A DNA stretch of 35,404 nt, taken from a virus. The position numbers were made by a program, and so were the translations under genes. This document shows positions 4,149 to 29,028 of the stretch, one piece after another (the first letter of the stretch is position 1; each line of letters starts with the position of its first letter). The stretch spans positions 1 to 35,404 of the IMG/VR virus record IMGVR_UViG_3300021964_007578; one strand, 5' to 3'. The notes under the pieces are model-generated. The model worked only from the letters and a program-made list of their open reading frames with translations. It was not told the DNA's origin and made no database searches.

Positions 4149-4670
4149 CTACTCCTTATTGTCTGCATGGTACTGATCCACGATTTTCATTGCGTGGTTC
4201 CTTAGAGTTGCGTTACCTTTCGTCATTCCGTCAAGTAACAGTTTCTTTTCTTGCATGTATACCTTTGCAAATCCCGGGTCGTGTTTCATAATACTTTCGG
4301 AGTTAGAAATTAGGTCTGCATACTTAATTGTCTGCGCTTGTGCAGACGCATTGATAGAATGCTCTCTATCTTTTGCTTTACGGAATGCCCTGTTGCCATC
4401 TTCAGGATCTGAAATATCTGTAAGATCAGATACTAACGATTTTACAACTTTTCCAAACTGAACTTCGATGTCATCAAGTGTGGCTTCCGTATCTTCTACA
4501 GTATCGTGTAGAACTGCCGCTATCAACATTTCTGTTGTATGTGGTACAGTCTTTACAATACCCATCACCTCTATAGGGTGTCCGATGTAAGGAGCGCCAG
4601 TGTATTTTCTTTTCTGACCTTTGTGGGCAAGAGTAGCATAAGCGATTGCTCTGTCTAATGGCCTGTCCAT
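4149..4670 (-). CDS. HD-domain (p)ppGpp hydrolase-like protein (MESH1/SpoT-HD type)
   Basis: A 173-aa stand-alone HD phosphohydrolase. Motifs in order: AHKGQKRKYTGAPYIGHP (His31), AAVLHDTVEDTEAT (His55-Asp56, Glu59-Asp60) and TIKYADLISN (Asp119, Asn123). These are the metal and substrate residues of SpoT/RSH hydrolase domains and of the small hydrolase MESH1, which is about the same length. No synthetase domain is present. Expected reaction: removal of the 3'-pyrophosphate of (p)ppGpp. I infer it keeps the host stringent response low during infection; MESH1-like NADPH phosphatase activity is an alternative. It has a strong SD (AAGGAGG) and its own sigma70 promoter at 4699-4727. Confidence 0.82.
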   Translation of the reverse strand: MDRPLDRAIAYATLAHKGQKRKYTGAPYIGHPIEVMGIVKTVPHTTEMLIAAVLHDTVEDTEATLDDIEVQFGKVVKSLVSDLTDISDPEDGNRAFRKAKDREHSINASAQAQTIKYADLISNSESIMKHDPGFAKVYMQEKKLLLDGMTKGNATLRNHAMKIVDQYHADNKE

Positions 4671-5256: not shown

Positions 5257-5820
5257 CTATAAAATGTGATCCGCAATATTGAGCTTGATCAGATCTTTTG
5301 CGGTGAAGTACTGATCGCTTGGACTGTCAAAATACTTTTTAACCTGTGCTAAAGTATAACCAGTCGCTTCTCGTAAAATTTGATAGGCACGTTGTTCGCA
5401 GTTTTGATTTTCATGCATTGCTGCTTTCATGTCGTGCATCTTAGCGTCCATAGTATCGCTATGTTGATGGTTCATTATACCTGTGTTCTTTCCTATATAC
5501 CTTTCGCCTTGCTTACCACTTGCAAAGATTAAAAACCCTGCACTCATGATTGCACCAACACCTATTGTTCTTATATGATGATAACTTTGTTTCATAACAT
5601 CAATAAGTGCAAACGCTTCGTATAGGTCTCCACCATATGTGTTTACATATAAGGTAAGTGTTTTCTTTGGCTTCTTGTTTAAATTGGCAGAAACAATCCA
5701 CTTAATAGTTTGGCTGACGTTGTCATTAGCAATATCTCCACTTAGATAATGAATGTCATTATCGTGTAGACTCTTGTCTATTGCATCACTGGCTGTCCAA
5801 TTCTCGTACTTTGCTGGCAT
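5257..5820 (-). CDS. ClpP-like serine protease
   Basis: A 187-aa ClpP/crotonase-fold protease. The catalytic triad appears intact: Ser93 in GVGAIMSAGF (ClpP GxxxSMA), His118 in GIMNHQHS (ClpP MIHQP) and Asp169 in SPSDQYFTAKD (ClpP DRFxSAxEA). The oxyanion-side strand LYVNTYGGDLYEAFALID matches ClpP LxINSPGG. Length is close to cellular ClpP without a propeptide. In phages such enzymes can be capsid maturation proteases; here it lies among early-type genes under its own sigma70 promoter, so I favour a role in cytoplasmic proteolysis, perhaps with the ClpS and tmRNA also encoded here. That link is inference. Confidence 0.85.
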   Translation of the reverse strand: MPAKYENWTASDAIDKSLHDNDIHYLSGDIANDNVSQTIKWIVSANLNKKPKKTLTLYVNTYGGDLYEAFALIDVMKQSYHHIRTIGVGAIMSAGFLIFASGKQGERYIGKNTGIMNHQHSDTMDAKMHDMKAAMHENQNCEQRAYQILREATGYTLAQVKKYFDSPSDQYFTAKDLIKLNIADHIL

Positions 5821-7798: not shown

Positions 7799-9859
7799 TC
7801 ATTTTGTTGTTGCAATGAACACTCCATTCCAATCTTTAGGTAACTTTTGTGTTTTCATATATTCACAACGTTCAATCCACATAGTATAATACCCTTCCAT
7901 CTTAGCATCAAAGTGTCTCGATAGTTTTTCACAAATCCATATTGCTTCATCAAACTTTTGTTTTTGATACAACTCATGCATTTCTTGATGCTGGCGTTGT
8001 GCTGTGCGCCATGCTGGTTTAGGATTGTCTAGCACTGTCCAAATACCAATACCTACAGTTTTACCTTTAACTGCTAGGTCGTCTACTTTTAAGTAGAAGA
8101 AGTCGTCTTTGGTTTGTTGATATGTTGCATCTCCTACTAGTAATAGGCAACCATATTCTTTACACTTAGATTCTATTCTTGCCGCTGTACTTACAGAGTC
8201 GCCAAGAACATCATAAGAGTGCCTTGCGGTGCTACCCATTTCGCCAAGGTAACCAAGGCCAGTATTAATACCGGCACCCATGCCAACGGGAGGACGTCCT
8301 TCATTTGTAATTTGTTCATTAAATTTCTCCACTGCTTTAAGCATATCTAATCCACATTGCACTGCGGTCTTTGGATGTTCTGGATCTTCAATTGGTGCAT
8401 TGTGTACATGCATACTTGCATCACCAATGTACTTAATAACCATACCATCGCTGTCTAATATAGGTTGTGTAATAGCGTCCATATAGCCATTCATAATTTT
8501 GGTTAGGCCTTTTACATCATCACCAAAACTTTCACCTAATGGTGTAAACCCACGCAAGTCTGAAAATAGAATACTAACTTCTTTCTTCATACCTTCTTTA
8601 ATAAGTGCTGGATTTTCTTGTAGCATACGCACCACTGTTGGTGATGCATACCCTGCAAATTGCTTCTTAATCTTTTGTTTTTCAAAGAATTCTACTACAA
8701 AACGGTTAAATGTAGCATGGAAACCTACTGCTGTGCCTACTAACAGTATCCAGCTCACATCCCATAGCTGTAAATGCCCTTTAAACAGCGTATAAGCGCC
8801 GTACAAGCACGTTGCGTACATAACAAGTACCAATGCACCCACTACGTAATACGGTGCTAAAACCGCTGCAATTATAAGAATAAGCCCAATTACGATACTA
8901 GCAGCATACTCTACAAATGTAGCATAATCAAAACGTACAATGTTATCGCCATTTACAATGGTCTGTAATGCTGTTGCAGTCATTATATGACTGTATTGTT
9001 CTCCGTTTGGAGTAGCAATAACTGGTGCAAGTCCTTCTGCTGTAATACCAATAATTACAATCTTGCCTTCCATTCCCCAAAAATAATCTTCTTCTGATGC
9101 ACTATAAACATCAAAGTTTTTGTTCCAACGCAACCAAATTCTACCATTTGGATCTGTTTGAATAGTTTGATACGCCGGCACACGCATAGCAATGATGCCA
9201 CCTTCGCCGGCTTTAACTTGATAACTAGGATCGCCTACAGCAACACGGATTGTTTCCATAGTGATACTTGGATATACTTCGTCACCTACACGCATTAGCA
9301 ATGGTAAGCGTCTTACAACACCATCTATTTCAGGTGCAGTATTAATTACTCCAACGCCTGCTGCGTTTTGACCTAGTAAAGGTATAGGACCTAACATGCC
9401 TGGCCATTCAAATAACCAAGGCATAGGATCTCCTATTTTAGCAACACCTCTTGGTACTGCATTTTTATTTGTTTGCGTTGTTCCTGTTTGTGCAATAACA
9501 ACACCATTGTTTAGCAACATCTGTGCTAGTTCAGTATCTCCACCTAGCCTATCATTCTCAGAAAATAGGATAGGCATAACAATAACGCCAGCACCATGCG
9601 CTCTTAAGTTTTCAATAATACCTGCTAATACATCACGCTTCCATGGCCATTGTCCGTACTTTTCTATAGATGCTTCGTCTATTTCTAATATAGCAATGTC
9701 TTTGGATAGTGGTTCTACTGTGTCATAACTTTGAATAAGATCAAAAGATTTGAGTCTTAAAGTCTGTTTTACATAGGGATCGTTGAACCCTAATATACTA
9801 ATAACCGCTAAGGTTAGAAGTGCTGTAGACCAATGTGTTATAATCTTTGACAGTTTCAT
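7799..9859 (-). CDS. CHASE2-domain adenylate/guanylate cyclase (class III)
   Basis: A 686-aa protein: N-terminal membrane segment (about 10-25), extracytoplasmic CHASE2 sensor (about 35-310; DIAILEIDEASIEKYGQWPW), three membrane helices (about 315-380), then a class III cyclase domain (about 425-620). Metal aspartates are Asp434 (LFSDLRGFT) and Asp480 (KYIGDASM); adenine-specifying Lys476 and Asp550 and transition-state Arg561 are present. The usual Asn before that Arg is Ser557. Expected product is cAMP from a periplasmic signal. A late-type promoter lies 5 nt before the ATG. FecR and CHASE2 proteins often co-occur in bacteria; here the FecR gene lies upstream in the same cluster. Confidence 0.9.
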   Translation of the reverse strand: MKLSKIITHWSTALLTLAVISILGFNDPYVKQTLRLKSFDLIQSYDTVEPLSKDIAILEIDEASIEKYGQWPWKRDVLAGIIENLRAHGAGVIVMPILFSENDRLGGDTELAQMLLNNGVVIAQTGTTQTNKNAVPRGVAKIGDPMPWLFEWPGMLGPIPLLGQNAAGVGVINTAPEIDGVVRRLPLLMRVGDEVYPSITMETIRVAVGDPSYQVKAGEGGIIAMRVPAYQTIQTDPNGRIWLRWNKNFDVYSASEEDYFWGMEGKIVIIGITAEGLAPVIATPNGEQYSHIMTATALQTIVNGDNIVRFDYATFVEYAASIVIGLILIIAAVLAPYYVVGALVLVMYATCLYGAYTLFKGHLQLWDVSWILLVGTAVGFHATFNRFVVEFFEKQKIKKQFAGYASPTVVRMLQENPALIKEGMKKEVSILFSDLRGFTPLGESFGDDVKGLTKIMNGYMDAITQPILDSDGMVIKYIGDASMHVHNAPIEDPEHPKTAVQCGLDMLKAVEKFNEQITNEGRPPVGMGAGINTGLGYLGEMGSTARHSYDVLGDSVSTAARIESKCKEYGCLLLVGDATYQQTKDDFFYLKVDDLAVKGKTVGIGIWTVLDNPKPAWRTAQRQHQEMHELYQKQKFDEAIWICEKLSRHFDAKMEGYYTMWIERCEYMKTQKLPKDWNGVFIATTK

Positions 9860-10623: not shown

Positions 10624-11916
10624 TTAGTTTTGTGTTACTGTAGTTGTTGCACAGCCGTTTGAATTGCCGCAATGTTGGCTAATTGAATATGTTTGTGATG
10701 TTGAACTATCTTGTGTAAGGTCAAGTGTTGCACTATGACCTGTCATGCTAACACTTGCATTATGATTGCCTGTGCCGTCTTGTGTAATTCCAACAGTTTG
10801 ATCGCTACCAACTGCAATTTCTACATAGTGTGATCCTGATCCTTGCTGATATAAATCGATATCATTATCGTCACCTTGAACGCTTAGGAATGCTTTCTTA
10901 TCTCCGTCATTCAGTTGACTTGCTAAAATATTGTTGCTATCTCCATCAAGATCTAATGCAAAGAAATGACCATTATTTCCGATACCATTGTTATGCTTTT
11001 GTGTAATGCTTAATACATTAGAGTCACCATTAACATCAAACTCAACTCTGTTGTCGTCTGCTGTAGCGGCGTCACCTTGAGTAACAGTTGTTGTATTAGA
11101 GTCTCCTGTAACATCAAACAGTATTGCATTGTTGTTACCTCTTTGTGTTAATGTTGTATCATTGTTATTACCAATGATGTCAGCGTTTACTATATTATTA
11201 GTTGTTGAACCAACACCTGCTATAAGGTTATCACTTCCGTCTTGAACTATATCAAGCTCGTTATCATTACCAACCTGGTTGATGTATATACCACTACCAT
11301 CATGTGTTACTGCTCTTGATGTTGTAATTTGTGTAGTCTGTGCTGAACTTATGCTTGATGTGTATGATGGTGCTGTGGTTGAGATATCAGTTGAGGCATT
11401 CACATAGACCGTACCAGCAGTAGCATTAGGCACATACCATAACTGCCTCAACACTGCCCCACCACTCCATTCCGAGAACCATCGTTCATAGGTGTAGGTC
11501 TCTCCTGCCTGAAGTGTGATCGTGCCTGTCCTTGTTGCTGGAGCATGTAGACCAGACCAATCATCAATCACGGTGGTGCCATCTATCTTCAACAGTGAAC
11601 CATCGTCATCTTGATTGTAGAAAGTTACTGTGACGCTGTCACCTGCTGACCCATTGGACGGAATCGGCACAGTGATGTAACCATCAAGGTGAACAACCAC
11701 ATAGTCACTCCTGCCTGAGTCCAATACAACACCACCGCCCCAATCGTAGTTCATTGTGCTGTCTGACAAAGTGCCTGATGAAAGTAAGGTGTTTGATGAT
11801 GTGGGACAAGGCCAACTTGGACAATACCAAGTTTCGTAATTAACATCTGCCAATGCTTGTATAGGTAATAATAATAATAAAAATAATAAACTATTTCTGA
11901 ATAATGTCAATATCAT
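10624..11916 (-). CDS. PA14-like domain fused to curlin repeats, secreted
   Basis: A 430-aa protein beginning at ATG 11916 (GGAG upstream), with a signal peptide ending PIQALA. Residues about 25-165 form a PA14/GLEYA-like beta-sandwich: HLDGYITVPIPSNG, YNQDDDGSLLKIDGTTVIDDW, ITLQAGETYTYERWFSEWSG and VLRQLWYVP. The rest carries curlin-like repeats (IYINQVGNDNELDIVQDGSD, TTLTQRGNNN, VGITQDGTGNHN) ending TTTVTQN. Curlin repeats form cross-beta fibres; PA14-like domains bind glycans. The PA14-like coding part (about 11341-11820) is near 50% G+C against about 30% in the repeats, which suggests recent acquisition. It overlaps the FecR gene by 26 bp. Proposed: fibre subunit with a binding head exported via CsgG. 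Confidence 0.85.
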   Translation of the reverse strand: MILTLFRNSLLFLLLLLPIQALADVNYETWYCPSWPCPTSSNTLLSSGTLSDSTMNYDWGGGVVLDSGRSDYVVVHLDGYITVPIPSNGSAGDSVTVTFYNQDDDGSLLKIDGTTVIDDWSGLHAPATRTGTITLQAGETYTYERWFSEWSGGAVLRQLWYVPNATAGTVYVNASTDISTTAPSYTSSISSAQTTQITTSRAVTHDGSGIYINQVGNDNELDIVQDGSDNLIAGVGSTTNNIVNADIIGNNNDTTLTQRGNNNAILFDVTGDSNTTTVTQGDAATADDNRVEFDVNGDSNVLSITQKHNNGIGNNGHFFALDLDGDSNNILASQLNDGDKKAFLSVQGDDNDIDLYQQGSGSHYVEIAVGSDQTVGITQDGTGNHNASVSMTGHSATLDLTQDSSTSQTYSISQHCGNSNGCATTTVTQN

Positions 11917-13024
11917 TACTGCCGTCTCCAAGTGAGTAGTCTCTTGTTTCAAAATCTGATTGTTGTAAATTAATGTTATAACCGTTCTGTTGATCTAATA
12001 TTAATTCTACTTGCATACCTGTTCCGCTATCACGTCTAAATACCCAGTTAGGATTTTGATTGTAAAGTTCAATACCTGTTACAGGATCTTTTCCGTATTT
12101 ACTTTTTGCTTTTGATTTAGATAAACTATCACCTAGTATCTTTGATAACATTTCGTTAAGTTGATCAAGTACATTAACAAGGAAGTTTTGATCTAAATAG
12201 TTTGAATCTAAGTCTGTTTGCCAAAGATCTGGATCTTCATCAAGTTGATTTATATCTAAACCGTCGTACTCTAAAAAATCAAATCCTAAGAAGTCTGCTA
12301 GTTCTACTGCTCTTTCTCTTTCTAGCTCGTACTCAATTTCTTTAGGCCTACGGATAATAAGCAGGTTATCAATAAGTGATTCATTAATGTCAATGATAAT
12401 AGGATCTAAAGGATTTGACTCTGGTACATCTACAACTGTTGCTTGAAATGCTTTGTTTAGAATAACTTGGCCAGCATCTGATTCTACTGATATCTCACCT
12501 ACAACACAGATGCGCTTTGTTCCTACCGCTGAACAACTTGGTAAAAGAATAATTGTTGAACTTCCTGTTTCATCAACAGTCATTGTAAAGTCAGTACCGC
12601 GTACACCAATAGTAGCGGTTGGTGTAGTGATTTTTATATCTTGCCTACTGTTCTTTGCAATCTGTCCTGATGCATATCTAATAGTTCCAAAAGATGCTTT
12701 GAGGGCAAGTTTACCTTTTGAAGTACTAGGATCATACACAAACTCATCAATAATTAGTTTACTGTTCTGTGTTACATCAACTCTAGTTTCGTCTACAAAT
12801 TCTATAGCAGTTTTACCTTGGCCTGTACGAACGGTATCGTAACTTACTATAGTACTACCTTTTTCAGAAGTTAGTTTTTCTCCTGCTTGTCGTTCAATAA
12901 TAGTATTACCAATCTGCTGGGTTACATTTCCGATAGAAGCAACATTCGCCATCGCGGGTACGGTGATAGTTAGACAAACTATCATGCCTGCACGTAACAG
13001 AATTTTGTCCAGCAGCCGGATCAT
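11891..13024 (-). CDS. Secreted FecR-domain protein
   Basis: A 377-aa exported protein. N-terminal hydrophobic segment (LLRAGMIVCLTITVPAMA), then a FecR domain with the strongly conserved ITTPTATIGVRGTDFTM and preceding DTVRTGQGKTAIEFVDETRV and GTIRYASGQIA segments. The C-terminal half is acidic and linker-like (DEDPDLWQTDLDSNYLDQ), and its last residues (GDGSNDIDIIQK) look like a curlin strand. In bacteria FecR domains sense signals in the periplasm; here no sigma factor is adjacent, but a CHASE2 cyclase lies in the same cluster. I infer a surface-anchoring or sensory partner of the curlins. It starts 4 bp after the curlin gene. Confidence 0.85.
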   Translation of the reverse strand: MIRLLDKILLRAGMIVCLTITVPAMANVASIGNVTQQIGNTIIERQAGEKLTSEKGSTIVSYDTVRTGQGKTAIEFVDETRVDVTQNSKLIIDEFVYDPSTSKGKLALKASFGTIRYASGQIAKNSRQDIKITTPTATIGVRGTDFTMTVDETGSSTIILLPSCSAVGTKRICVVGEISVESDAGQVILNKAFQATVVDVPESNPLDPIIIDINESLIDNLLIIRRPKEIEYELERERAVELADFLGFDFLEYDGLDINQLDEDPDLWQTDLDSNYLDQNFLVNVLDQLNEMLSKILGDSLSKSKAKSKYGKDPVTGIELYNQNPNWVFRRDSGTGMQVELILDQQNGYNINLQQSDFETRDYSLGDGSNDIDIIQK

Positions 13025-13028
13025 AAAG

Positions 13029-13796
13029 TTAATCCGTTTGCGTAATGTCTATTGTTGCATCGTTTCCTACAGTAGTAAGACTCAACACTTTATCTTCAAC
13101 ACCTGATTGTGTAATGTTCGCAATCGAACCACCACCTTTCATATTAACTGTCATACTGTGACCATTAACATCACCAGTTCCTGATTGTGTAATTGCAACT
13201 GTATTAGCAACCCCACTTTCAACTGATGTGCTTGATGCTGTGTTACCGCCGGCGCCAACGCCTGTTAGTGTTGTTGAGCCATCGTTACTCATATCAAAGT
13301 CTAAATCAGCATTTTGAGCATTAAGTGTAAAAGTTAGAGTATCTGCATTACTGTTATTAGCCAAATCAATTGTACCCACAAAGTTCTGTGCGTCACCTGA
13401 TCCACCAATTGTTGCTGTAATGTCAGCACTTCCGCCTGTTACATCAATACTTAATGATACTGTTTCACAGTTACCAGCACCAGCGTTATCACAGTCTAAG
13501 TCGACTTGGTTACTGTTACCAGTTAAGTTAATGTTACCTGTATAGGTATTACCTTTAATGGTAGTTTCAATAACGTTAGTGTCACCTACTTGTGATACAG
13601 AAAACGTCATATCATTACCTTGCAACAAAACTCCTGTTGCATTAGTACCTAATACGTTATTTGTTCCGTCTTGTGTTACATCTAAGTCTAAGTCATTACC
13701 AGATTGCTGTATGTATATGTCATTAGCATAAGCTGGAGATATCAACCCTAAACCAAGAATAAAAAGACTACTTGCTACTATTGTCTTTAGTTTCAT
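13029..13796 (-). CDS. Curlin-repeat fibre protein (CsgA/CsgB-like)
   Basis: About 255 aa. Signal peptide (VASSLFILGLGLISPAYA) then repeats with the curlin pattern I-x-Q-x-G-x-x-N: DIYIQQSGNDLDLDVTQDGT, FSVSQVGDTNVIE, VAITQSGTG, IANITQSGV and a terminal IDITQTD. A middle Asn/Thr/Gly-rich part (LNAQNADLDFDMSNDG) has weaker repeats and one possible disulfide pair (DCDNAGAGNCE). It is longer than E. coli CsgA (151 aa). I choose the second of two ATGs (13796) because GGGAG lies 5 nt before it; the first is only 2 nt away. It overlaps the csgG end. Expected to polymerise outside the cell after export. Confidence 0.87.
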   Translation of the reverse strand: MKLKTIVASSLFILGLGLISPAYANDIYIQQSGNDLDLDVTQDGTNNVLGTNATGVLLQGNDMTFSVSQVGDTNVIETTIKGNTYTGNINLTGNSNQVDLDCDNAGAGNCETVSLSIDVTGGSADITATIGGSGDAQNFVGTIDLANNSNADTLTFTLNAQNADLDFDMSNDGSTTLTGVGAGGNTASSTSVESGVANTVAITQSGTGDVNGHSMTVNMKGGGSIANITQSGVEDKVLSLTTVGNDATIDITQTD

Positions 13797-14802
13797 CATC
13801 GCTCCCTTGACTGTCTATTCCGTCAGCCAATTTTTTAATTAACGGATCGTTATGCCAACACATGTTGTCTGCGTCACAATAGTAACTTGTTACACCTGGA
13901 TACTGCTTATTAAATTCATCTTCTGGTAATTTAATAATAGCTTCATGTCTCTGGTGTATAGTCGGACGCGACTCCGGTATTAACATACTCTCTAGTTCAC
14001 TTTCCCTCTTGAACTTCCAAAGTTTCTTTTCTTCACCTTTCATTATCAACTCAACTATTGCTGCTTCAATTGCTGTACGAACTGCATAGTTGGTTGGTTC
14101 GTTTACTGCTGCGCCTACTTCAATTTCAAGTGCCTTGGTGCCCATATCTAAGAAACGAAATACATCGCCTCCGCTACTATAACTTGCAATTTTCTTTTCA
14201 GTTGCCACAGTTAGGAGTACTTCTCCTGTTTGTGTACTGATTATGCGCATCGCCACAGTAACTTGGTCTGTTCTATAAGATGTCTGACCGCCAATGCCAA
14301 AATATCTAGCACCAACACCCCCACTCTCCATATTAGAATCGTAGCCAACAACTCCACCTTCTAATATCAGCCCCGCAAAGAGCAGTGGTTTTAAATCAGT
14401 CGGATCGTTTTCGTAAACTTCTCTAGTTGATCTAATTAACTGTCTTTCTTTAACTAGATTATCTAAGCCTACTCGTTCCACAACTTGGAACCACTTTCCT
14501 CCACCCACTTCTTTCAGAGCATTTATAACCCAAACCTCAGCACCTTGAGTAACCGCACTACTGAGCTGACTAAAACTGTCATTAGGCTTACGTTGCCCTG
14601 TTTTGTCTAGAAAACTGTAAATTGCAATTGTTATTTTTGGTCCATCGATAGCTGGCACGGTCTCCAATACACTTTGGTATGGACTCTCCGCTTTCACGGG
14701 TGGTGTCCAATCCTTTTTTGTATAGGTGGCCGCGCAACCTGTTATTGCTATAGCCAGGAACACAAATAACAAACTTCTAATTAAACTAATCAATCCTGTC
14801 AT
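13768..14802 (-). CDS. csgG: CsgG-family curli secretion lipoprotein
   Basis: A 344-aa lipoprotein: signal peptide with lipobox AITGC (Cys23), then a CsgG/HfaB fold with ITIAIYSFLDKTGQRKPN, AVTQGAEVWVINALKEVGGG, WFQVVERVGLDNLVKERQLI, LLFAGLILEGGVVGYDSN and VTVAMRIISTQTGEVLLTV. CsgG forms the nonameric outer-membrane pore of type VIII secretion. It is longer than E. coli CsgG (277 aa) owing to a C-terminal extension with two cysteines (YYCDADNMCWHND). TAATG overlap with csgF. No csgE homologue is visible, so gating may differ. Confidence 0.93.
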   Translation of the reverse strand: MTGLISLIRSLLFVFLAIAITGCAATYTKKDWTPPVKAESPYQSVLETVPAIDGPKITIAIYSFLDKTGQRKPNDSFSQLSSAVTQGAEVWVINALKEVGGGKWFQVVERVGLDNLVKERQLIRSTREVYENDPTDLKPLLFAGLILEGGVVGYDSNMESGGVGARYFGIGGQTSYRTDQVTVAMRIISTQTGEVLLTVATEKKIASYSSGGDVFRFLDMGTKALEIEVGAAVNEPTNYAVRTAIEAAIVELIMKGEEKKLWKFKRESELESMLIPESRPTIHQRHEAIIKLPEDEFNKQYPGVTSYYCDADNMCWHNDPLIKKLADGIDSQGSDDETKDNSSK

Positions 14803-15257
14803 TAAAATCCAAAACCTGTCAATGGTACAGTGATTGTCGTAACGGTTCCATCTTCTTCTGTAATGGTGATGCTAATAGTATCTGTGGTAGTATCTTTCAC
14901 CCAGTATATTGTAGCACCTTCGATTTCAGCTGTGCCACTGTTAGCACCTGTGTCATCGAACATACCGTCGACTAATTGCTTAGAAAGTTGTGCATAGATT
15001 CTACTCTCAACGTTGTTAAGAAACTTCGCTAAGTTAGTAGACTCTGCTTCACGCTTTGCTCTCGCAGCATCTGATTCAGCCTTGTCCTTAATATCTTTTT
15101 TACGAGTGAACTGTAATTGTTCAATACTCAAGACATGGCTGGAGTACCCTTGACCTGAAAATGATGGATTCTTAAATTTAAAGACCTCATCACCTGCAAG
15201 GGCAGGTGCTGTAATCAGTAAACTCAGAATAATAGATGCAGAAATTACATTTTTCAT
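14802..15257 (-). CDS. csgF: CsgF-family curli assembly protein
   Basis: A 151-aa protein with a signal peptide (IILSLLITAPALA) and a CsgF-type start, FKFKNPSFSGQGYSSHVLSI, corresponding to the pore-plugging N-terminal peptide of CsgF (NPNFGG...L...A). A charged helix follows (DKAESDAARAKREAESTNLA) and a beta-rich C-terminus (DTISITITEEDG). CsgF docks on CsgG and couples fibre nucleation to the pore. It is first of the leftward csg cluster with GGAG 6 nt before its ATG and late-type promoters upstream. Confidence 0.88.
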   Translation of the reverse strand: MKNVISASIILSLLITAPALAGDEVFKFKNPSFSGQGYSSHVLSIEQLQFTRKKDIKDKAESDAARAKREAESTNLAKFLNNVESRIYAQLSKQLVDGMFDDTGANSGTAEIEGATIYWVKDTTTDTISITITEEDGTVTTITVPLTGFGF

Positions 15258-15400: not shown

Positions 15401-15408
15401 TATAAATA
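15401..15408 (+). promoter_or_regulatory. T4-consensus late promoter TATAAATA
   Basis: Perfect TATAAATA on the plus strand, 31 nt before the ATG at 15439, with GGAAGGAAAC as ribosome-binding site. It is the only exact T4-consensus late motif I found placed ahead of a gene. Confidence 0.7.
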
Positions 15409-15438: not shown

Positions 15439-15681
15439 ATGAGCAAGGAAGAACTTACTGAACAGGAGGCGATGTGGGAGTTATTGGAAACAACGTTTCC
15501 TGGCAAAGATCACAATTTAGTAATTAACTTACCTAATGAACTAGCAGAATTAGAGAAAAACAAACTTATGCAAGTTCTCGAGTTTCACGATTGGAATAAA
15601 TCAAGAGCAGCCAAAGATTTGGGCATAGGCCGAACAAATCTAATTGCTAAAATAAAAAAATATGAATTGATTCAGGATTAA
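15439..15681 (+). CDS. Fis-type (HTH_8) DNA-binding protein
   Basis: An 80-aa protein whose last 42 residues form a Fis/NtrC C-terminal helix-turn-helix: ELEKNKLMQVLEFHDWNKSR, AAKDLGIGRTNLIAKIKKYEL. In this family the pattern is L-x(4)-N-x-x-AAxxLGIxRxTLxxKLKxY. The N-terminal half is acidic and lacks the AAA+ or receiver domains of NtrC-type activators, as in Fis (98 aa). It is the only plus-strand gene in its region and diverges from csgF across a palindrome. I infer it regulates the csg cluster or phage late genes. Its stop codon overlaps that of the convergent gene at 15678. Confidence 0.85.
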   Translation: MSKEELTEQEAMWELLETTFPGKDHNLVINLPNELAELEKNKLMQVLEFHDWNKSRAAKDLGIGRTNLIAKIKKYELIQD

Positions 15682-27672: not shown

Positions 27673-28251
27673 TTAAACTTCAGTGCCTTTAATGTCTTTA
27701 ATAAAGGTGAACTTTTCAGTCTGACTGCTTAGATATTCAATAACTTTCTCAGGTGCTGTTTCACCATAAGGGTCGCTATCGGCGCCATCGCAGTTTTTGC
27801 CTGGCTCTTCAAACCATGCTTCGACTACACCGTCATTAATGACAGCCGCATATCGCCATGAACGTTGCCCAAAACCTAAATGCCGTTTGTCAACTAGCAT
27901 TCCCATCATTTGTGTAAACAGTGCATTGCCATCTGGAATGACCTTTACCCTTTCTACACATTGGTCTTTGGCCCATTTGTTCATAACAAATGCGTCATTA
28001 ACAGAAATGCAGTAAATTTCATCTACTCCCATTTCTTTAATCTTGTTGTAATTCTCTTCAAATCCTGGTAGCTGATATGTACTACATGTTGGTGTAAACG
28101 CTCCTGGTAAGCTGAATAATACTACTCTTTTTCCAGCAAAGTATTCGCTGCCGTCGACATCTTGCCAACGATAAGGGTTTGGTCCTTCGATGGATTCATC
28201 TCGAACTCTGGTTTTAAAAACCACGTTAGGTATTTGTACACCTTCTCTCAT
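27673..28251 (-). CDS. Peroxiredoxin (Prx5-type)
   Basis: A 192-aa thioredoxin-fold peroxidase. The peroxidatic cysteine Cys56 is in LFSLPGAFTPTCSTYQLPGF; VDEIYCISVNDAFVMNKWAK and NDGVVEAWFEEPG match the Prx5 class, with a resolving-type cysteine possible at KNCDGAD. It reduces peroxides using thiols, often from glutaredoxin; a glutaredoxin is encoded at 31220-31474. Bacterial Prx5 proteins can carry a fused Grx domain, absent here. Likely protects phage replication or ribonucleotide reductase from oxidation. Confidence 0.92.
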   Translation of the reverse strand: MREGVQIPNVVFKTRVRDESIEGPNPYRWQDVDGSEYFAGKRVVLFSLPGAFTPTCSTYQLPGFEENYNKIKEMGVDEIYCISVNDAFVMNKWAKDQCVERVKVIPDGNALFTQMMGMLVDKRHLGFGQRSWRYAAVINDGVVEAWFEEPGKNCDGADSDPYGETAPEKVIEYLSSQTEKFTFIKDIKGTEV

Positions 28252-28362: not shown

Positions 28363-28437
28363 TGGCAGGCAAACAAGGAATCGAACCTCAGTTTACAGTT
28401 TTGGAGACTGTCGTGTTACCACTACACCATTCACCCT
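28363..28437 (-). tRNA. tRNA-Trp (CCA), imperfect acceptor stem
   Basis: A 75-nt cloverleaf with anticodon stem ACAGT/ACTGT and loop CTCCAAA (anticodon CCA), T-arm TGAGG-TTCGATT-CCTTG, and an encoded CCA end. The acceptor stem AGGGTGA/TTTGCCT has two central mismatches (G-G and U-U) and a G-U pair, so it may be degenerate or tolerate repair. It lies 3-10 nt after the tmRNA 3' region on the same strand and is probably cut from one precursor. Confidence 0.7.
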
Positions 28438-28439
28438 TT

Positions 28440-28740
28440 GTCAATAAAGTGCAACTTTTCTGTTGCCAGGTAAGTTGCCAACCCCGTTACCTAGTTAGAC
28501 TAGGCAGCAAGAGCAAAATTATTGTTTGCGTCTATAAAGTTGCTTGATTTACGGTCATCGCCTACCGGTAACTCCACGTTCTCTCATACATCAGTCGATC
28601 CTAGTTCGCCCCCATCATAAACACATTGGGATTGTATTGTTCCACGGACGGTCTTGATACAAACATCGTCCAATGTGCTTATGGTGGAGGCGCGGGGTAC
28701 CGCCCCCCGGTCCTGTCTGTCGTTGATTGGCTTCAACGTT
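28440..28740 (-). ncRNA. ssrA: Permuted two-piece tmRNA (ssrA)
   Basis: Minus strand, acceptor piece first: T-stem-like CGGGG/CCCCG, then CGCCTCC-ACCA ending at 28682. An intervening segment (28614-28681) with a long stem follows, then the coding piece from GGGGGCG (28613), which pairs with CGCCTCC. GAACTAGGATCGAC is the usual tmRNA 5' signature. The tag frame GCA...GCC-TAG (28529-28500) encodes ANNNFALAA. It is followed by a hairpin and an H-type pseudoknot (GGTAA/TTACC with GCAAC/GTTGC). Order acceptor-spacer-coding is the circular permutation known in alphaproteobacteria and some cyanobacteria. Outer ends are approximate. Driven by the promoter at 28750-28778. The T-loop GGCGGTA is unusual. 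Confidence 0.92.
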
Positions 28741-28749
28741 ACAGTTATA

Positions 28750-28778
28750 TTTATACTATCATATTATTGGTTTGTCAA
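28750..28778 (-). promoter_or_regulatory. Sigma70-type promoter of the tmRNA
   Basis: TTGACA (28773-28778), 17-nt spacer, TATAAA (28750-28755) on the minus strand, placing the start near 28740-28743. The -10 is within TATAAATA, so the same site could also serve as a T4-like late promoter. Confidence 0.82.
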
Positions 28779-28780
28779 CC

Positions 28781-28807
28781 AAAAAAATAGGCCCCGAAGG
28801 ACCTATT
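28781..28807 (-). terminator. Intrinsic terminator after the cold-shock gene
   Basis: Stem AATAGGTCC/GGGCCTATT with a TTCG tetraloop followed by TTTTTTT on the minus strand, 18 bp after the stop of the gene at 28825. Separates the csp operon from the tmRNA promoter. Confidence 0.92.
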
Positions 28808-28824
28808 TTCTAAAAATATTCTAC

Positions 28825-29028
28825 TTATGAAGGTCGAATATCTGATGCTTGAGGACCTTTAGGTCCCTCTGCCATTTCGTAAGTAACGGCTTGATTCTCT
28901 TGTAGAGATTTATATCCGTCGCCTGAAATAGCTGAGAAATGAGCGAATACATCTTTTCCGCCGTCGTCTGGAGTAATGAAGCCAAAACCTTTGTCTGCAT
29001 TAAACCATTTTACTTTTCCTGTTGCCAT
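28825..29028 (-). CDS. Cold shock protein (CspA family)
   Basis: A 67-aa CSD protein: [20 protein letters not shown] (RNP1 KGFGFI) and [10 protein letters not shown] (RNP2), ending [12 protein letters not shown]. Binds single-stranded RNA/DNA and unwinds mRNA structure. Last gene of a leftward operon from 29787, closed by a strong terminator. Phage Csp proteins could aid late mRNA translation or antitermination. Confidence 0.96.

Follow-up and report, generated by a model that had tools for sequence, protein, structure and literature searches.

A permuted two-piece tmRNA gene with a putative hybrid promoter and spacer slot in a pelagimyophage-like genome fragment

Identification and anatomy of the tmRNA

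Does a phage genome fragment carry its own working two-piece tmRNA, and if so, where does this RNA come from, when would it be made and what occupies the segment between its pieces? The window analysed here is the whole of a 35.4-kb IMG/VR record (IMGVR_UViG_3300021964_007578; 35,404 nt), a 35-kb fragment in which an earlier note, made from the sequence alone, had proposed a circularly permuted tmRNA with its own promoter. We found that positions 28742-28451 of the minus strand, on which all features of this locus lie, encode a circularly permuted tmRNA consisting of an acceptor piece, a 68-nt spacer and a coding piece with an H-type pseudoknot. Two Rfam covariance models scored above their curated cut-offs, RF01849 (alpha_tmRNA) at 28448-28791 with 122.9 bits (E 2.7e-33; cut-off 50) and RF04321 (tmRNA_permuted) at 28500-28742 with 120.6 bits (cut-off 47), and ARAGORN, which is independent of Rfam, called a permuted tmRNA* with the tag ANNNFALAA. 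The proposed permuted arrangement was thus borne out, the match to the alpha-tmRNA model being significant.

The acceptor piece (28682..28742), placed by the start of the RF04321 match at 28742 and by the sequence, comprises the P2 5′ strand, the T-arm, the acceptor 3′ strand CGCCUCC and an encoded ACCA, the last base of which is 28682. It is followed by the spacer (28614..28681), which is exactly the 68 nt that had been claimed and whose two ends form a 12-bp helix (MFE −19.3 kcal/mol, z −3.1). The coding piece (28451..28613; ARAGORN, Rfam and pseudoknot covariation) begins with GGGGGCG at 28613 and runs to the end of the pseudoknot, so that both the sequence and ARAGORN give the order acceptor piece, spacer, coding piece. 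Its tag frame (28500..28529), GCA AAC AAT AAT TTT GCT CTT GCT GCC TAG, has a resume codon and a hydrophobic ALAA end, with the codons at 28529-28503 and the TAG stop at 28502-28500; ARAGORN returned the same ANNNFALAA-stop that had been read by eye. The H-type pseudoknot 3′ of the tag (28451..28494), also anticipated in the earlier note, could be resolved into S1 (28494-28489/28471-28466) and S2 (28478-28472/28457-28451). The 7-bp acceptor stem GGGGGCG/CGCCUCC contains a G3.U70 pair, the mark of alanine tRNAs, and the whole tmRNA folded with a z of −4.6 relative to shuffles. An intron-containing tmRNA, with a group I intron in the T-loop, was considered and rejected, as Rfam gave no group I intron match in the window or in the tmRNA loci of 8 relatives.

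Comparison with viral relatives indicates that this type of tmRNA is under selection as an RNA. The pattern used to search for viral tmRNAs prescribed acceptor pairs 1-4 and one of the two bases of pair 7, therefore only pairs 5-68 and 6-67 are informative; these were standard in 100% and 99%, respectively, of 106 distinct viral tmRNAs among the matches listed, with five standard pair types at 5-68 and three at 6-67. Pseudoknot S2 covaried across 69 phage and host sequences (44 distinct stems), with a mean of 6.4 bp compared with 4.87 ± 0.12 for swapped partners, and a spacer end helix of at least 10 bp was present in 88% of viral tmRNAs but in 0.2% of shuffles.

Upstream of the tmRNA lies a cold-shock-domain gene (28825..29028), separated from it by that gene's intrinsic terminator (28782..28811), a hairpin and U tract. 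The consensus terminator scan did not list this element; its hairpin of −16 kcal/mol (z −5.6) agrees with the claim that the tmRNA is insulated. Directly downstream is a tRNA-Trp(CCA) gene (28363..28436; ARAGORN, Rfam) that is probably co-transcribed with the tmRNA, an arrangement shared by relatives L369-L376, followed by a peroxiredoxin gene (27673..28251). Elsewhere the window encodes a ribonucleotide reductase, a PAAR/tail lysozyme protein, endolysins, CsgF, CsgG, curlin repeats, a CHASE2/cyclase protein, peroxiredoxin and ClpP. Its CsgG is nearest to those of Pelagibacter phage HTVC008M (58.7%) and Melnitz (55.2%), and from this similarity and the gene content we therefore regard the window as part of a pelagimyophage-like T4 relative, for which SAR11-type Alphaproteobacteria are the most likely host. 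The SAR11-type family used for comparison was itself assigned from a genome (G224) with two SAM-V riboswitches and from family genome sizes of 0.8-1.6 Mb; G224 came from a second batch, the first six small genomes searched having yielded no SAM-V riboswitch. The curli-like block (10624-15257, minus strand) consists of CsgF, CsgG, two curlin-repeat proteins, one with a PA14 domain, and a FecR-domain protein, and is followed by the CHASE2/cyclase protein. The ClpP-family protease (5257-5820, minus strand; Pfam CLP_protease, 92 bits) shares its genome with a degradation-tag RNA, and could be a head protease instead of ClpP.

Two-piece tmRNAs have been published for the OM43 (Methylophilales) phage Melnitz and for other marine phages, pelagimyophages, with 53 of 133 distinct phage tmRNA structures scored as two-piece and 50 of these 53 coming from marine or aquatic samples (PMC9004378); the view that phage tmRNAs are mostly one-piece is therefore out of date for marine phages. 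Our pattern scans of IMG/VR in five spacer-length classes returned at least 120 stretches in each of four classes and 87 in the fifth. Given these hundreds of contigs and the published cases, the tmRNA as such belongs to a known type, and is functional-looking but in itself ordinary for marine phages. Melnitz resembles the window in having a permuted tmRNA of alphaproteobacterial type, a T4-like marine phage genome and curli pore genes, but differs in its tag (ANDNYVPVDYALAA as against ANNNFALAA), in spacer length and content and in genome position; at its locus a glutamine riboswitch (4354-4402) overlaps the annotated tmRNA 3′ end, as published. The SAR11 phage isolate HTVC008M (KC465899) carries a permuted tmRNA at 145161-145370 that had not been annotated; it shares with the window CsgF/CsgG/curlin and cyclase genes and a peroxiredoxin gene near the tmRNA, and differs in its tag, ANFNEYALAA. 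Phage-type permuted tmRNAs were also seen in four bacterial MAGs (L126, PBPT01000016.1; G001; G311; G312), probably as phage contigs binned with bacteria; in the Neomarinimicrobiota MAG L126, phage genes surround the tmRNA.

A candidate early/late promoter

The tmRNA was confirmed to have what appears to be its own promoter, with a sigma70-type −35 box TTGACA (28773..28778) that aligned in all relatives compared, followed after 17 nt by TATAAATA (28748..28755), a T4-type late box that occupies the −10 position as well and is kept in the six closest relatives. The late box lies about 6 nt before the model RNA start at 28742, the placement expected of a late promoter, which phage sigma gp55 would use late in infection. 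From its sequence we read this element as a composite of a sigma70 −35 box and a T4-late box. The earlier interpretation, right on the permuted tmRNA, the promoter and the terminator, had overlooked both this hybrid character and the exchangeable spacer described below.

The hybrid form was strongly enriched at viral tmRNAs. Among the matches listed in a first scan, TTGAnn-17-TATAAATA occurred at 62 of 121 tmRNAs and 11 times elsewhere in the contigs, compared with 0 of 121 and 55 for TTGAnn-17-TATAAT; the corresponding values among the matches listed in a second, independent scan were 35 of 120 and 3 for the hybrid, and 0 of 120 and 78 for TATAAT. Taken together, the hybrid was found at 97 of 241 tmRNAs and TATAAT at none, with 14 and 133 occurrences elsewhere (Fisher 2e-53, a value overstated by the relatedness of the sequences). 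The 17-nt segments between the boxes had a mean identity of 37% and fell into 17 clusters in the viral tmRNA set. Cellular ssrA promoters mostly lack the late box, which was found in 0 of 30 genomes of the SAR11-type family and in 2 of 60 other alphaproteobacterial genomes. Melnitz also has TTGACA-17-TATAAATA, a promoter classed as early by its authors (PMC9004378), whereas the HTVC008M tmRNA is without the hybrid form. We found no earlier description of the hybrid promoter, or of the spacer turnover and spacer ORFs described below, in the literature searched.

An association of the late box with contigs holding homologs of Melnitz, HTVC008M or window proteins was tried and dropped (p 0.72, in contigs that are short). 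The window contains only three TATAAATA boxes; one of them (15401-15408, plus strand) is a likely late promoter, followed 30 nt further on by a small gene for a Fis-like HTH protein (15439-15681, plus strand). One phage contig (L079) carries a pair of permuted tmRNA genes (8100-8560 and 9040-9520) at a distance of about 1 kb, with the tags ANDNFASEDYALAA and ANENFALAA; both have the hybrid promoter, and their acceptor stems, GGGGTAG/CTACTCC and GGGGGCG/CGCCTCC, are compensatory.

The spacer and candidate small genes in relatives

Almost every base of the mature pieces of relatives L371-L376 matches the window, whereas their spacers, of 164, 106, 45, 45, 45 and 106 nt, have 23-46% identity with the 68 nt of the window and retain only the pairing ends TAAGCACA...TGTGYTTATGAT. 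The same pattern was seen in 25 pairs of the viral set, in which near-identical mature pieces enclose spacers that differ by at least 30 nt. Cellular spacers are short: those of the SAR11-type family span 11-13 nt, and none of the 72 genomes measured exceeds 61 nt; the length distribution of the phage spacers reflects the length classes of our scans and not natural frequency. The spacer thus appears to be an exchangeable slot between fixed mature pieces, and a permissive one because it would be discarded.

Long spacers of relatives appear to carry small protein genes. Among the matches listed, 264 distinct viral tmRNAs had a spacer of at least 90 nt, and in 215 of them an ORF filled at least 60% of it; 91% of spacers of 140-185 nt had an ORF covering at least 70%, compared with 8% after shuffling; no excess over shuffles was observed for spacers of 60-100 nt. 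The ORFs formed about 54 families (by single linkage, which merged some), and each of the 12 families with variation enough for a test was most variable at the third codon position (1878/937/3170 in one example). A Shine-Dalgarno sequence preceded 92 of 174 ATG starts, compared with 24 in shuffles. The stop codon was the TGA of a conserved TGAT just before the coding piece (spacer position −4) in 102 of 215 ORFs, and in 46 of 215 it was a TAG within the coding piece, at +10. Eight of eight spacer-ORF loci re-examined with Rfam were tmRNAs, and homologs of proteins from Melnitz, HTVC008M or the window are also encoded on 186 of the 215 spacer-ORF contigs.

Such genes would have escaped notice because the entire stretch is annotated as tmRNA. 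This is the case in the Melnitz isolates, where a spacer ORF (46096-46212) that is not reported in PMC9004378 lies inside the annotated SsrA. A different spacer ORF family is represented in Melnitz by gene 85, which stands free immediately upstream of the tmRNA (70.5% identity), and three families have several free-standing homologs each. A PHROGs search with ten spacer proteins gave one weak match only, and two spacer proteins had no match among phage isolates. The 68-nt spacer of the window itself showed no coding signal; its 21-codon ORF (MFVSRPSVEQYNPNVFMMGAN) is unsupported, being found in one distinct relative only (L037), with a shared MFVSRP start, and was left as noise.

Known tmRNA genes with cargo include one with a group I intron that carries a homing endonuclease gene and a permuted tmRNA with a tRNA-Ala in its spacer, the latter and a repeat element being the only spacer cargo of permuted tmRNAs in the non-subscription literature searched (PMC11915505). 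The phage spacers are similar in that an extra gene sits in a stretch that the mature tmRNA lacks. They differ in that their small ORFs are many and unrelated and lie, without an intron, between the acceptor piece and the coding piece. We tentatively propose, as a possibility rather than as the expected outcome, that the spacer is a dedicated cargo slot in marine T4-like phages, where small genes come, go and are exchanged, served by a dual early/late promoter and with translation and maturation competing for the closing helix, and that the window holds a short, non-coding allele.

A narrower reading, which we consider doubtful, is that translation of the spacer ORF is coupled to tmRNA maturation through the terminal helix. 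Here the Shine-Dalgarno sequence would lie in the 5′ strand of the helix and the stop within or beside its 3′ strand; ribosomes would then open the helix and delay processing, and a fall in initiation would let the helix close and the tmRNA mature. In single-sequence folds of the 103 ORFs that have a Shine-Dalgarno sequence, this was at least 60% paired in 82, and in 61 its partner lay within the final 25 nt of the spacer, which suggests a competition of this kind, as does the frequency of the stop at position −4. However, the helix and TGAT are also found in ORF-free spacers and may serve processing alone, and coupling does not apply to the window itself.

Function, origin and meaning

We consider it highly probable that the window encodes a working two-piece tmRNA with a discarded, permissive spacer in a T4-like marine phage with a likely SAR11-type host, and ribosome rescue with tagging for proteolysis appears to be the best reading of its function. 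A decoy or inhibitor that occupies SmpB or stalled ribosomes and so blunts host trans-translation has a precedent in the tag-less tmRNA of mycobacteriophage DS6A, as cited in PMC11915505, but is improbable here: the DS6A copy is described there as being without a tag frame, whereas the window copy keeps a full ALAA-ending frame, a stop codon, a covarying pseudoknot and G3.U70, and the spacing and ending of the tag are preserved across diverse phages.

The origin of the RNA was addressed by comparison with cellular copies. Alphaproteobacterial ssrA genes (RF01849), including those of SAR11 type, share with the window the permuted arrangement, the T-loop and the ACGGGGT..ACCTGGCAACAGAA pseudoknot motif. 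The T-loop GGCGGTA, previously described as a departure from the usual sequence, is normal for this lineage, since GGCAGTA (62) and GGCGGTA (35) account for 97 of 121 viral permuted tmRNAs among the matches listed and also occur in SAR11-type host copies; we therefore rejected it as an anomaly. The nine-residue tag matches in length and ending those of the SAR11-type family (ANESYALAA, ANDKFALAA, ANEQFALAA, ANNKFALAA), while the other cellular tags examined were mostly longer than nine residues. The shared nine-residue form points to a phage tag adapted to the proteases of SAR11-type hosts.

In a tree of 83 sequences, based on about 300 columns, with viral rows picked by pattern and several long branches, a branch (99/96) had all 37 cellular alphaproteobacterial tmRNAs on the same side. 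The window belonged to a clade of 10 rows, all of them from phages (98/96), and did not nest among the SAR11-type copies, with which its identity is at most 57%. Because the phage tmRNAs group apart from the 37 cellular ones, a recent host capture is not supported; the capture from a host with a permuted tmRNA that the earlier note had envisaged is possible as an ancient event only, and the pattern can be read as a phage tmRNA lineage of long standing. Recent passive capture from a current SAR11 host, for instance as an attachment-site remnant with no phage-specific function, would account for the similar tag and T-loop but is very improbable given this separation, a promoter and spacer that differ from those of the host (host spacer 12 nt), the spacer turnover between near-identical mature parts of sister phages and the lack of an integrase among the window ORFs scanned.

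For a working two-piece tmRNA, one precursor would be transcribed from the hybrid early/late promoter through acceptor piece, spacer and coding piece and probably into tRNA-Trp. Host tRNA-processing nucleases would cut at the coding-piece 5′ G and after CCA, a maturation to which the turnover of the spacer lends indirect support, releasing the spacer, and the two pieces would stay paired through the acceptor stem and P2. Charged with alanine via G3.U70, the tmRNA would enter stalled ribosomes with host SmpB and add ANNNFALAA, a host-like tag that should send the product to ClpXP. Between sister phages the spacer changes as the mature RNA stays constant, and the small protein gene in many relatives' spacers would use the tmRNA promoter.

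The tmRNA alone is one more example of a published group, and the unusual part is the hybrid promoter together with the cargo spacer. The published guess for expression of such a tmRNA is early only; the sequence predicts both early and late. The hybrid promoter makes it possible to test at what stage, and for what reason, phages bring a ribosome-rescue RNA of their own, a question of long standing. If the spacer is indeed a cargo slot, permutation would let phages insert genes within an RNA gene that looks essential without any cost to the mature RNA, and many unrelated small, overlooked proteins would sit in tmRNA spacers.
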